Shown: positions 50,418-52,713 of the stretch, one piece after another
Position numbering within the stretch: position 1 is the first letter of the stretch
Layout: the number at the start of each line of letters is the position of its first letter
Assembly (NCBI GenBank): GCA_001772865.1
Contig: MEVD01000021.1
Location: 1 to 52,713, forward strand
Direction: 5' to 3'
DNA length: 52,713 nucleotides
DNA from: a candidate division WWE3 bacterium RIFCSPHIGHO2_02_FULL_38_14
GTDB taxonomy: Bacteria; Patescibacteriota; WWE3; UBA101185; UBA10185
The notes under the pieces: generated by a model
What the model saw: the letters and a program-made list of their open reading frames with translations, nothing else
Database searches by the model: none
Told to the model about the DNA's origin: nothing
Made by a program: the position numbers and the translations under genes

Positions 50418-50499
50418 ATTCATTTCTCCGTGAAGATATATTACCACATGTTTTTAGGTGTGGAAGGAAAAAAATAAAATTTTAAGCAAACTATTAGCG

Positions 50500-50528
50500 T
50501 TGACAGATATGAATAAAAAATAGATTAT
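50500..50528 (+). promoter_or_regulatory. Promoter upstream of the 54-codon frame
   Basis: TTGACA (50500-50505), 17 bp, GATTAT (50523-50528). The -10 is imperfect (4 of 6). An SD-led start codon follows 32 nt downstream. Confidence 0.45.
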
Positions 50529-50560
50529 GAAAATAGCTTATGTGAAAGGAGAAGTTTAAC

Positions 50561-50725
50561 ATGACCCGATTCGCCAAAATCCCGGACAATGTAACCCACC
50601 GGTCTGGGTCCGCCTGCGAGGCGGGAACAAAGTGGGCGGACAGACGGGTTAAATCTATCTCTTTACCAACTCGTCTGTCCGTTTCCTCAATAAATTATCT
50701 CTCTTTCGTGGTTTCTAAAAAATAA
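50561..50725 (+). CDS. Possible small protein (54 aa) overlapping a structured RNA
   Basis: An ATG with the SD AAAGGAG at 9-nt spacing opens a 54-codon frame ending TAA. The product is basic and polar (MTRFAKIPDNVTHRSGSACE onward) with no recognisable domain. The frame runs straight through the GC-rich repeated stems at 50593-50679, whose base pairing constrains the codons, so the frame may be incidental or may be a leader peptide for the RNA element. I see no homologue of it among the other micro-genes here. Confidence 0.35.
   Translation: MTRFAKIPDNVTHRSGSACEAGTKWADRRVKSISLPTRLSVSSINYLSFVVSKK
50593..50679 (+). ncRNA. Structured RNA with mutually exclusive helices (switch-like or palindromic repeat)
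   Basis: Segment 50635-50650 (GGCGGACAGACGGGTT) can pair in two ways. Upstream, AACCC (50593-97), GTCTG (50602-06) and TCCGCC (50609-14) form a three-part stem with it. Downstream, AACTCGTCTGTC (50668-79) forms a 12-bp stem with GACAGACGGGTT (50639-50), including one G-U pair. A smaller hairpin CCGCC-TGCGA-GGCGG (50610-24) competes with the first. The block is far more GC-rich than its surroundings. It could be a regulatory RNA or a dispersed palindromic repeat. No T-tract marks a terminator. Confidence 0.5.
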
Positions 50726-50862
50726 TTAAATGACATTAGGAAGTTCAGGAAGATAGGTTTCCATATCAGTTTTCAAGTAAAAAGAACCAATTAATACCCT
50801 GCCTGAAATTTCAACCAAACTTGAATCATTGTGAACTTGAAACGAAGTTACATCCCCGAAAA

Positions 50863-50890
50863 TTGACAATTCTATGATTGTTATTATAAT
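50863..50890 (+). promoter_or_regulatory. Consensus promoter of the 30-aa acidic peptide gene
   Basis: TTGACA (50863-50868) and TATAAT (50885-50890), both perfect, with 16-bp spacing. It is the strongest match to the sigma70 consensus that I found in the window. Confidence 0.75.
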
Positions 50891-50926
50891 CCACATATGT
50901 CAACTAAATCTGAGAAGGAAAATGTC

Positions 50927-51019
50927 ATGTTCAGCTATAATTCCATTGGTTACACCGGCCCTGACGACGATGACGACCAAGATAACGGCGACGACAAAGT
51001 TACAAGCAAGGTAGCCTGA
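50927..51019 (+). CDS. Acidic micropeptide 1 (30 aa)
   Basis: An ATG preceded by AAGGAA at 6-nt spacing starts a 30-codon frame beginning MFSYNSIGYTGPDDDDDQ and ending TGA. The C-terminal half is rich in Asp. An in-frame ATG at 50897 would give a 40-aa version, starting 6 nt after the -10 box, so a leaderless longer form is possible. A second peptide at 51553-51627 shares S-[YF]-N-[ST]-x-G-Y-x-x-P-D-D-D. At the identical residues nearly all codons differ (AGC/TCC, AAT/AAC, TAC/TAT, CCT/CCC, GAC/GAT). That pattern indicates selection on the peptide. Function unknown. Confidence 0.7.
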   Translation: MFSYNSIGYTGPDDDDDQDNGDDKVTSKVA

Positions 51020-51161
51020 GTAGATTTACTCCTAAACAGCAACATTTGATGAATTCAGTCATTACCGTAATCTCTCACATCTTTCAATAAATAGCTTAAA
51101 CCTTTGAAATTGTTAATATCATAATTAATATGGAATTATATGTTTGAAAATATAAAGAGTT

Positions 51162-51189
51162 TTGTCTGATTGACAATATCTGATACAAT
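51162..51189 (+). promoter_or_regulatory. Promoter of the His leader/attenuator
   Basis: TTGTCT (51162-51167), 16 bp, TACAAT (51184-51189), then 9 nt to the leader ATG at 51199, the same geometry as the leaderless gyrB, gyrA, yebC and efp promoters. Confidence 0.55.
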
Positions 51190-51198
51190 ATCTCCATC

Positions 51199-51264
51199 AT
51201 GTACAAAGGGACAAGCAGAAATCATCATAGATGGAGCACAAACCACCTAACGGCGGTTATCTAG
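51199..51264 (+). CDS. Histidine-rich leader peptide upstream of hisS (21 aa)
   Basis: The frame reads MYKGTSRNHHRWSTNHLTAV plus Ile and ends TAG. Three of 21 codons are His: codons 9 and 10 in tandem (51223-51228) and codon 16 (51244-51246). There is no SD; the ATG lies 9 nt after the -10 box, so it should be translated from a leaderless mRNA. The frame ends inside the antiterminator arm (51252-51269). A ribosome stalled at the His pair leaves that arm free, while one reaching the stop masks it. This is the logic of the enterobacterial his leader, here upstream of hisS. Confidence 0.6.
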   Translation: MYKGTSRNHHRWSTNHLTAVI

Positions 51265-51335
51265 TCTGTTGCATGAGTCCCTTATAAAATATTTTTGATT
51301 TTTCACAGACTGAGCCGCCGAAAGGCGGTTTTTTT
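51206..51335 (+). promoter_or_regulatory. Ribosome-mediated attenuator (alternative RNA helices) before hisS
   Basis: Four helices can form. AAGGGAC (51206-12) pairs with GTCCCTT (51277-83). The antiterminator pairs GGCGG (51252-56) with CCGCC (51315-19) and AGTCTGT (51263-69) with ACAGACT (51305-11). The terminator pairs the same CCGCC (51315-19) with GGCGG (51324-28). Antiterminator and terminator are mutually exclusive because they share CCGCC. No T-box sequence (TGGNACC) or known riboswitch core was recognised. The regulated genes would be the 24-aa peptide and hisS. Confidence 0.6.
51314..51335 (+). terminator. Intrinsic terminator of the His leader
   Basis: The CCGCC-GAAA-GGCGG tetraloop hairpin is followed by seven T (51329-51335), a textbook rho-independent terminator. 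Confidence 0.88.
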
Positions 51336-51552
51336 GTTGGTTGAAATCGTAAGTCTACGGGGAGAGTTTTAAAGTAGATTGAAAACTAAAAAATAATGAG
51401 AAGAATCCAAATAAACACTTTTTATCTAAAAAGTACTTCTTTGGGCTTTTCTCTATAGGTCAATAGTATTTCAAGAGAAAGCAACCAGCCAAGCTGCAAA
51501 CCACTCTGCCGGTTTGACAAATGGCCACCTCAAAATGAAGGAGGTGACAAAC

Positions 51553-51627
51553 GTGTCCTTCAACACCAAGGGTTATCGCGACCCCGATGATGACGAGGAA
51601 GAGAATGACCGCGAGTGGCGCCACTAA
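51553..51627 (+). CDS. Acidic micropeptide 2 (24 aa), paralogue of micropeptide 1
   Basis: A GTG start 6 nt after the near-perfect SD AAGGAGGTG (51538-51546) opens a 24-codon frame starting MSFNTKGYRDPDDDEEEN (GTG read as Met) and ending TAA. An in-frame ATG at 51535 could give six more residues but lies on the SD. It shares S-F-N-T-x-G-Y-x-x-P-D-D-D with micropeptide 1. It lies between the attenuator terminator and hisS, so read-through would co-express it with hisS. A hydrophobic 87-codon frame on the opposite strand covers it; the codon-divergence argument favours this strand. Function unknown. Confidence 0.68.
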   Translation: MSFNTKGYRDPDDDEEENDREWRH

Positions 51628-51681
51628 AAGCTGACCGGTTTGAGACTGGAGAGCTAAGGTGAGCCAGTAAAGGCAGAGCAT

Positions 51682-51734
51682 AGAAGGGGAAGATTGCAAA
51701 ATCAGCTTGGAGCGATCGAGCATCTTCCCCTTCT
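51682..51734 (+). other. Perfect 13-bp stem in the hisS leader
   Basis: AGAAGGGGAAGAT (51682-51694) pairs perfectly with ATCTTCCCCTTCT (51722-51734) around a 27-nt loop. No T-tract follows, so it is more likely an mRNA-stabilising or regulatory structure, or an RNase III site, than an intrinsic terminator. Confidence 0.5.
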
Positions 51735-51745
51735 AGGACGATTGT

Positions 51746-51764
51746 AGCATACAAATTGTATGCT
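51746..51764 (+). promoter_or_regulatory. 19-bp palindrome upstream of hisS (possible operator)
   Basis: AGCATACAA-A-TTGTATGCT is a perfect palindrome around one central base, 53 nt before the hisS ATG. The one-base centre suits a DNA-binding dimer better than an RNA hairpin. No regulator gene is adjacent. Confidence 0.45.
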
Positions 51765-51817
51765 CAATTTTAAAGAATTGGAGCATTATTTATTTAATTA
51801 AGTGGTAATATTTTTAT

Positions 51818-52713
51818 ATGGAGCAAAAAAACAAAAAACTAAGTACACAATCATATAAAGGCGCGAGGGATTTTTATCCTGAAGACATGCGTGCCAGAAA
51901 TTATATTTTTGAAACCTGGAAGAAGGTCTGCAGAAAGTACGGTTTTGACGAATACGACTTCCCCATTTTAGAACCTTACGAAATATTTGCCGCCAAAACC
52001 GGAGAAGAAATTGTGAAAGACCAGCTATACTCTTTTGAAGACAAAGGCGGCAGAAAGCTGGCAATAAGACCAGAGTTAACTCCCGGAACCGTAAGAATGA
52101 TCGCGCAGAAATACAAAGAGCTGGTTCAGCCGATTAAGTGGTTCATGATCGGAAATAACTGGCGGTTCGAGAAACCCCAGCTGGGAAGAGGCAGGGAGTT
52201 TTATCAGCTGGAAGTAAATATCTTCGGAGAAAAAAGTGTTGCCGCGGACTTTGAGATCTTCTCGATTATTATTGATGTAATGACTGCTTTCGGCGCCAAA
52301 AAAGAGCAGTTCGCTCTTTTATTAAGCGACAGAAGATTAATCAGCGCATTACTTAGCAACGCGCTTAAATTAAGTGAGGAAATGCAGGCAAAAGTCAGAA
52401 GGCTGATGGACAAAAGAAGCAAAATGGAAAAAGAAGAATTTTTAGCTTCGTTAAAAGAGCTTGGTATAAACCCGGAACAATGCAGAAAAGTAGAAGCCTT
52501 TATGAATTGCAGTTTAGAATCCATAAGCAGTATAATTCCCCCCGAAATTTTAAATGAAAATGACGGCTATAAATCAATCAAGGAGCTTTTTGAAATGCTA
52601 AATGCTTCGGGCTTAGGAGATTACTGCCGATTTGATCCTTCTATTATAAGAGGATTTGACTACAGCGACGGTTTAGTTTATGAAGTATTCGACAAAAATC
52701 CCAAAAACAGCCG
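51818..52713 (+). CDS. hisS: Histidyl-tRNA synthetase (partial, runs off the window)
   Basis: The 298 visible residues are the N-terminal catalytic core of class II HisRS. GARDFYPEDMRARNYIFETW opens it (the family has KG.RD..P). Motif 1 is around FDEYDFPILEPYE, motif 2 is FMIGNNWRFEKPQLGRGREF with the ATP-binding Arg, and SIIRGFDYSDGLVYEVFD is the HisRS-specific histidine A-like motif (family RGLDYY.G..FE). The ATG at 51818 has no SD; TAATAT lies 6 nt upstream, so an internal leaderless start is possible besides read-through from the attenuated promoter at 51162. The C-terminal anticodon-binding domain is outside the window. Confidence 0.95.
   Translation, partial: MEQKNKKLSTQSYKGARDFYPEDMRARNYIFETWKKVCRKYGFDEYDFPILEPYEIFAAKTGEEIVKDQLYSFEDKGGRKLAIRPELTPGTVRMIAQKYKELVQPIKWFMIGNNWRFEKPQLGRGREFYQLEVNIFGEKSVAADFEIFSIIIDVMTAFGAKKEQFALLLSDRRLISALLSNALKLSEEMQAKVRRLMDKRSKMEKEEFLASLKELGINPEQCRKVEAFMNCSLESISSIIPPEILNENDGYKSIKELFEMLNASGLGDYCRFDPSIIRGFDYSDGLVYEVFDKNPKNS

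Follow-up and report, generated by a model that had tools for sequence, protein, structure and literature searches.

A putative His-codon leader-peptide attenuator upstream of hisS in a WWE3 bacterium, with two siblings elsewhere in the genome

The window analysed here is a 52,713-nt stretch of DNA from a candidate division WWE3 bacterium, which we take to be an ultra-small, uncultured relative of WWE3 (Katanobacteria) in the Candidate Phyla Radiation (CPR). A preliminary description of this DNA had named the last gene of the window as hisS, and the family profiles agreed: TIGR00442 was the best match, making the product a histidine--tRNA ligase. This gene and a metal-dependent hydrolase gene form a pair that is divergent in several relatives; the start-to-start gap is 54–498 nt in most such relatives, 1.7–1.9 kb in two, and 1.37 kb here. 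hisS carries no ribosome-binding site and has an extended -10 element of its own (Table 1). A leaderless pattern is common among the genes of the window, where a simple scan found few ribosome-binding sites. Among 28 hisS upstream regions, 13 have a -10 element with at least 5/6 matches located 4–10 nt before an ATG, against 2.2 expected; the element of the hisS of the window scores 4/6 plus TG.

The element of interest lies upstream of hisS and ends in an intrinsic terminator, 482 nt before the hisS start. Between this terminator and hisS we found a short frame (ORF2), a 14-bp hairpin (51681–51735) and a weak terminator-like hairpin (51746–51771). Of the ribosome-binding sites in the region, AAGGAGGTG before ORF2 is the strongest. 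The 14-bp hairpin is perfect and is located inside a stretch around ORF2 (51480–51760, 281 nt) that folds well beyond its shuffles (z -4.4) and has no Rfam match. On the other side lies a unit with a perfect promoter and a leaderless acidic frame (ORF1); the terminator at 51312 could end a transcript from this promoter too. Two short acidic peptides flank the element, GPDDDDDQDNGDD (50897–51019) and DPDDDEEENDRE (51553–51627), and their mutual similarity is weak.

Table 1. Features of the region upstream of hisS and of the two sibling elements
Feature	Position in window	Strand	Sequence or basis
Neighbouring ORF1 unit: acidic 40-aa frame (leaderless, start 50897) behind a perfect TTGACA-16-TATAAT promoter	50863..51019	+	sequence, promoter scan
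Leader promoter	51162..51189	+	TTGTCT (51162–51167), 16 nt, TGA+TACAAT (51184–51189); extended -10
Leader frame, 21 codons	51199..51264	+	MYKGTSRNHHRWSTNHLTAVI*; sequence, sibling frames
His9-His10 codons	51223..51228	+	CAT CAT; inside permissive stall zone, codons ≤14 (masked folding)
Arm A, able to pair with arm B or terminator 3' arm	51241..51247	+	AACCACC; folds, word also in C15 sibling
Antiterminator 5' side	51251..51269	+	CGGCGGTT plus TAGTCTGT; folds, CGGCGGTTA recurs in C15 sibling
Antiterminator 3' side, overlaps terminator 5' arm	51305..51320	+	fold
Intrinsic terminator	51312..51335	+	GAGCCGCC-GAAA-GGCGGTTT (51312–51331), T run to 51335; terminator scan
ORF2, possible first target	51538..51627	+	AAGGAGGTG, then GTG at 51553, MSFNTKGYRDPDDDEEENDREWRH (24 aa)
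hisS own extended -10	51803..51811	+	TGG TAATAT (TGGTAATAT); sequence, 6 nt before ATG
hisS, histidyl-tRNA synthetase	51818..52713	+	incomplete, runs off contig end
C15 sibling			CTCCATCATG opening 23-codon frame MGRISITTNNYFSYFYFSALYGG; words AACCACC, ACGGCGGTTA; AACCGCCGGAAGGCGGTTTTTTT
C23 sibling			TTGACA promoter, frame MNSSTLNKFKFFFGFNTAKVG, UAG stop, same stem, then AAGGAG and GAPDH-II-like gene

The leader promoter was located by a consensus scan, with 9/12 matches plus TG, and the ATG at 51199 lies 9 nt past the -10 element, so that the frame is leaderless or nearly so. Direct reading of the sequence gave the 21-codon frame with His9-His10 and a third His, His16. The UAG stop (51262–51264) falls within the antiterminator. 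When the RNA was folded up to 51321, positions 51251–51258 paired with 51313–51320 and 51262–51269 with 51305–51312, at -24.4 kcal/mol; the terminator alone folded at -13.5 kcal/mol, and the antiterminator ties up its 5' arm. Promoter, near-leaderless start, His codons and an antiterminator overlapping the terminator arm had all been proposed in the preliminary description, and each is present in the sequence at the stated coordinates. Read in another frame, 51206–51247 gives KGQAEIIIDGAQTT, a cupin-like motif.

We estimated how often such features arise by chance. Among open 20-codon frames, 0.4–0.5% have an HH pair and at least three His in all; when intergenic regions of 1370 nt were shuffled, 5% had this combination at some point. 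Of 500 shuffles, 33 equalled the antiterminator fold up to 51321, and 65 equalled the gain that the terminator 5' arm brings; the alternative pairing is therefore only mildly unusual when taken alone (7–13% of shuffles). The leader anatomy is real and, by itself, statistically modest.

Support beyond chance came from the same genome, because two sibling elements were found there. Self-comparison of the stretch located the terminator twice more, at C15 and C23. Intrinsic terminators are rare in this organism: only 15 were found in the approximately 455 kb of its own sequence that was scanned (72 kb of this sample is N, in the 20 stretches checked), and the one of the leader is strong. Several of these 15 sit close before genes, not only after them, and the genome may contain more siblings that end in a different terminator. 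In 377 kb of own sequence, the terminator stem CCGCCGnnAGGCGG was found nowhere but in the three leaders, once in each, and the leader start CTCCATCATG at only two sites, in the window and C15 leaders. Likewise, the pattern GGCGGTTN{28,58}CCGCCNNNNGGCGGTTTT has only 2 sites in 45 genomes of the class, those of the window and C15. The leaders were compared by shared words and folds, as a global alignment of the three misaligns them.

The sibling frames are 21–23 codons long and close behind a promoter, and both elements lie about 50–60 nt ahead of genes. In the case of C15, a PEP mutase/isocitrate lyase-like gene starts 58 nt past the element, and a class IV aminotransferase gene comes next (L151, 1922–3681). 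No full-length relative of the PEP mutase-like gene was found among the 44 other genomes of the class, which suggests that it was acquired, perhaps along with its leader. All three frames stay open up to the antiterminator arm and end there with a UAG stop, and a nested A:D/B:C fold plus a competing terminator is common to all three leaders. Runs of one residue type are located in the stalling zones (HH, YFSYFYF and FKFFFGF); AT-rich DNA can be expected to encode F/Y runs, and the residues of the sibling leaders (Phe/Tyr for C15, Phe for C23) have no obvious match to the functions of their genes.

Folding was then repeated with a ribosome footprint masked. The terminator 5' arm was hidden when the stall lay no further than codon 14, 17 and 16 (one permissive limit per leader among the three siblings) and was freed later. 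His9-His10 falls within the permissive codons 1–14, which agrees with the stalling logic of the preliminary description; His16 is located where a stall would favour termination. The computed anatomy, sibling elements and folds are compatible with the following switch, for which we infer that the leader frame is translated, that the response depends on His, and what the target is. RNA polymerase would start near 51196 and a ribosome would initiate on the AUG, near the 5' end of the transcript. Stalling at codons up to 14, chiefly at His9-His10, would leave CGGCGGUU free for the terminator 5' arm, and transcription would continue. If all 21 codons were read, the ribosome would cover CGGCGGUU and the terminator would form. 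The continuing transcript would enter ORF2 and could reach hisS, supplementing the leaderless promoter of this gene.

We searched for the same arrangement in relatives, all belonging to other genera of WWE3 (Katanobacteria) or Dojkabacteria. About 30 hisS genes of these relatives were covered, and the leader element was absent from all of them. Upstream of other hisS genes no His-rich frame plus terminator was found; His-rich frames were few and had no terminator. In genomes of the class, the leader part of the 1.37-kb stretch gave only short matches; the search there covered the 3' part of the stretch, and short matches were what it looked for and returned. The stretch gave one short match against phages and none against plasmids. 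A match in G028 corresponds to AT-rich DNA and was judged to be due to chance. Across the phylum, 380 genomes were compared with the 81-nt leader as sole query. The RF00514 covariance model gave no match at the locus up to E=1 or E=10, and no other Rfam family was credible there.

Several genomes of the class use another device at this gene. T-box matches were found in 25 of the 45 class genomes, five of them above the cut-off. T-boxes are located upstream of hisS in five genomes (G006, G007, G025, G032 and G034) and, in G021, upstream of a tRNA-His gene near hisS. In alignments of the hisS and tRNA-His T-boxes, CAC follows GAA or AA of the specifier loop. These predictions point to repeated use of tRNA-His sensing at hisS within the class. 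The G021 T-box (L145 157–525, G021:C5) has a CAC specifier and lies directly before the tRNA-His gene (anticodon GTG), and from its sequence context this riboswitch looks as if it controls the tRNA-His gene itself. Some T-boxes of the class lie 0.4 to well over 1 kb ahead of hisS, so that distance alone leaves control of hisS possible in the window. In the genome studied here, T-boxes were found only before glyS and proS (G000:C6:70936-71123 and G000:C22:18016-18227; L142, L143), with scores under Rfam's curated score and E about 1e-6 per genome. No T-box was found at the hisS locus: RF00230 matched nothing in 50440–51830, even at E up to 10.

Since the same layout was found three times in the genome, we interpret 51190–51335 as a probable, if far from certain, attenuator of transcription that operates through a leader peptide, whatever its target; the siblings are also the reason for preferring an attenuator over chance plus an ordinary terminator. 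The claim on hisS has to be graded apart because of the own promoter of this gene, the 482-nt gap, ORF2 and the lack of an obvious match between amino acids and genes in the siblings. The doubled His codon beside hisS is suggestive of this gene as the target, and histidine control of hisS through the attenuator is a tentative reading that we hold as possible. Attenuation of hisS, as put forward in the preliminary description, is thus supported for its mutually exclusive leader-peptide design, found again in two siblings, and weakened for hisS as the target by the -10 element of the gene, its distance, the intervening ORF2 and the absence of the element from the relatives searched.

The element could also be an ordinary small unit, in which the terminator closes either ORF1 or a gene of 21 codons for a small protein or small RNA; hisS would then be transcribed solely from its own leaderless promoter, and the His codons and the pairing would be incidental. 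The -10 element of hisS and the tendency of its homologues to be leaderless fit this explanation, as do the perfect promoter and ORF1 upstream and the 7–13% of shuffles that equal the antiterminator. So does the 1.37-kb stretch, specific to this genome where the gene pair of relatives is mostly 54–498 nt apart. Nevertheless, two siblings of the same layout stand directly before genes in the genome, and we consider an ordinary unit somewhat unlikely. A working leader-peptide attenuator might instead be aimed at ORF2, or at a gene since lost, rather than at hisS. In favour of this are the ribosome-binding site of ORF2, unsurpassed in the region, and the one (AAGGAG) with which the gene of the C23 sibling likewise opens; the uniqueness of the stretch to this genome is also compatible with such a target. 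On the other hand, ORF2 has just 24 codons and is without known relatives outside the region, and the HH pair beside hisS would then be a coincidence, which makes this variant unlikely.

Two further origins of the leader were weighed. Its body could derive from part of a cupin gene that was captured or has decayed and is now read in another frame, with His codons reflecting old Ile codons (GQAEIIIDGAQT). Over 38 nt it is 87% identical to a cupin gene that is intact in G042 and was the sole match in the 380 phylum genomes, and the cupin is present in 31 of the 45 class genomes and absent from this one. Yet the match ends at both sides, the cupins of nearer relatives share at most 26/42 bases there as compared to 33/42 for G042, and the start, arms and terminator shared by the siblings are left unexplained; we regard this origin as improbable. 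That the leader is a degenerate T-box of hisS is more improbable by far: several relatives do have T-boxes before hisS or tRNA-His, and the genome has its own before glyS and proS, but nothing T-box-like was matched here and the UGGN-ACCGCG motif was not seen.

Returning to the leader-peptide attenuator, its broadest form would be that a CPR bacterium controls hisS by a leaderless His leader peptide, replacing the His T-box of some relatives, with sibling attenuators before other genes. We put this forward as a conjecture that is more doubtful than probable. If true, coupled transcription-translation attenuation would reach the Candidate Phyla Radiation, a leader peptide would be able to work from a leaderless start in a much reduced genome, and hisS would offer an example of exchange between T-box and leader peptide. 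The organism is uncultured, and the three siblings make attenuation testable with short synthetic templates. The class of mechanism is already known, and the element would be at most a new occurrence in a new bacterial branch.

Ribosome-mediated attenuation is classical for his operons. The leader of the enterobacterial his operon (RF00514) resembles the present element in its short His frame, its mutually exclusive antiterminator and terminator, and a stop near the switching arm. It differs in its long His run, where the window has only HH and one further His, a leaderless start and no match to any Rfam model; the closest large gene in the window, 482 nt off, encodes a synthetase and is not a biosynthesis operon. 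The hisS T-boxes (RF00230) of related WWE3 genomes bind tRNA directly, without a translated leader, and none is present at this hisS locus; they share with our proposal a terminator-based control, in their case of hisS or tRNA-His, by tRNA-His charging. Classical attenuators are known or proposed for pheST in gamma-proteobacteria and for trpS and leuS in Streptomyces (PMC1262725). These are likewise cases of ribosome-mediated attenuation of an aminoacyl-tRNA synthetase gene, for other amino acids and upstream of the synthetase, as opposed to the 482 nt and own promoter signal found here.

The preliminary description knew of no such attenuation for hisS in this kind of bacterium. Among the papers searched, we found no report combining CPR with leader-peptide attenuation. 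The statement on hisS has to be qualified for bacilli, in which His leader peptides have been predicted upstream of hisZ and of a hisS paralogue and an exchange between T-box and leader peptide has been proposed (Naville and Gautheret 2010, PMC2965389). His leader attenuators were also described in further Firmicutes (PMC9413887). The element of the window belongs to another phylum than the bacilli prediction and lies far from its gene; the likeness between them is one of layout, in that a His-codon frame and a terminator accompany a gene of the hisS family, in lineages otherwise using T-boxes for hisS.
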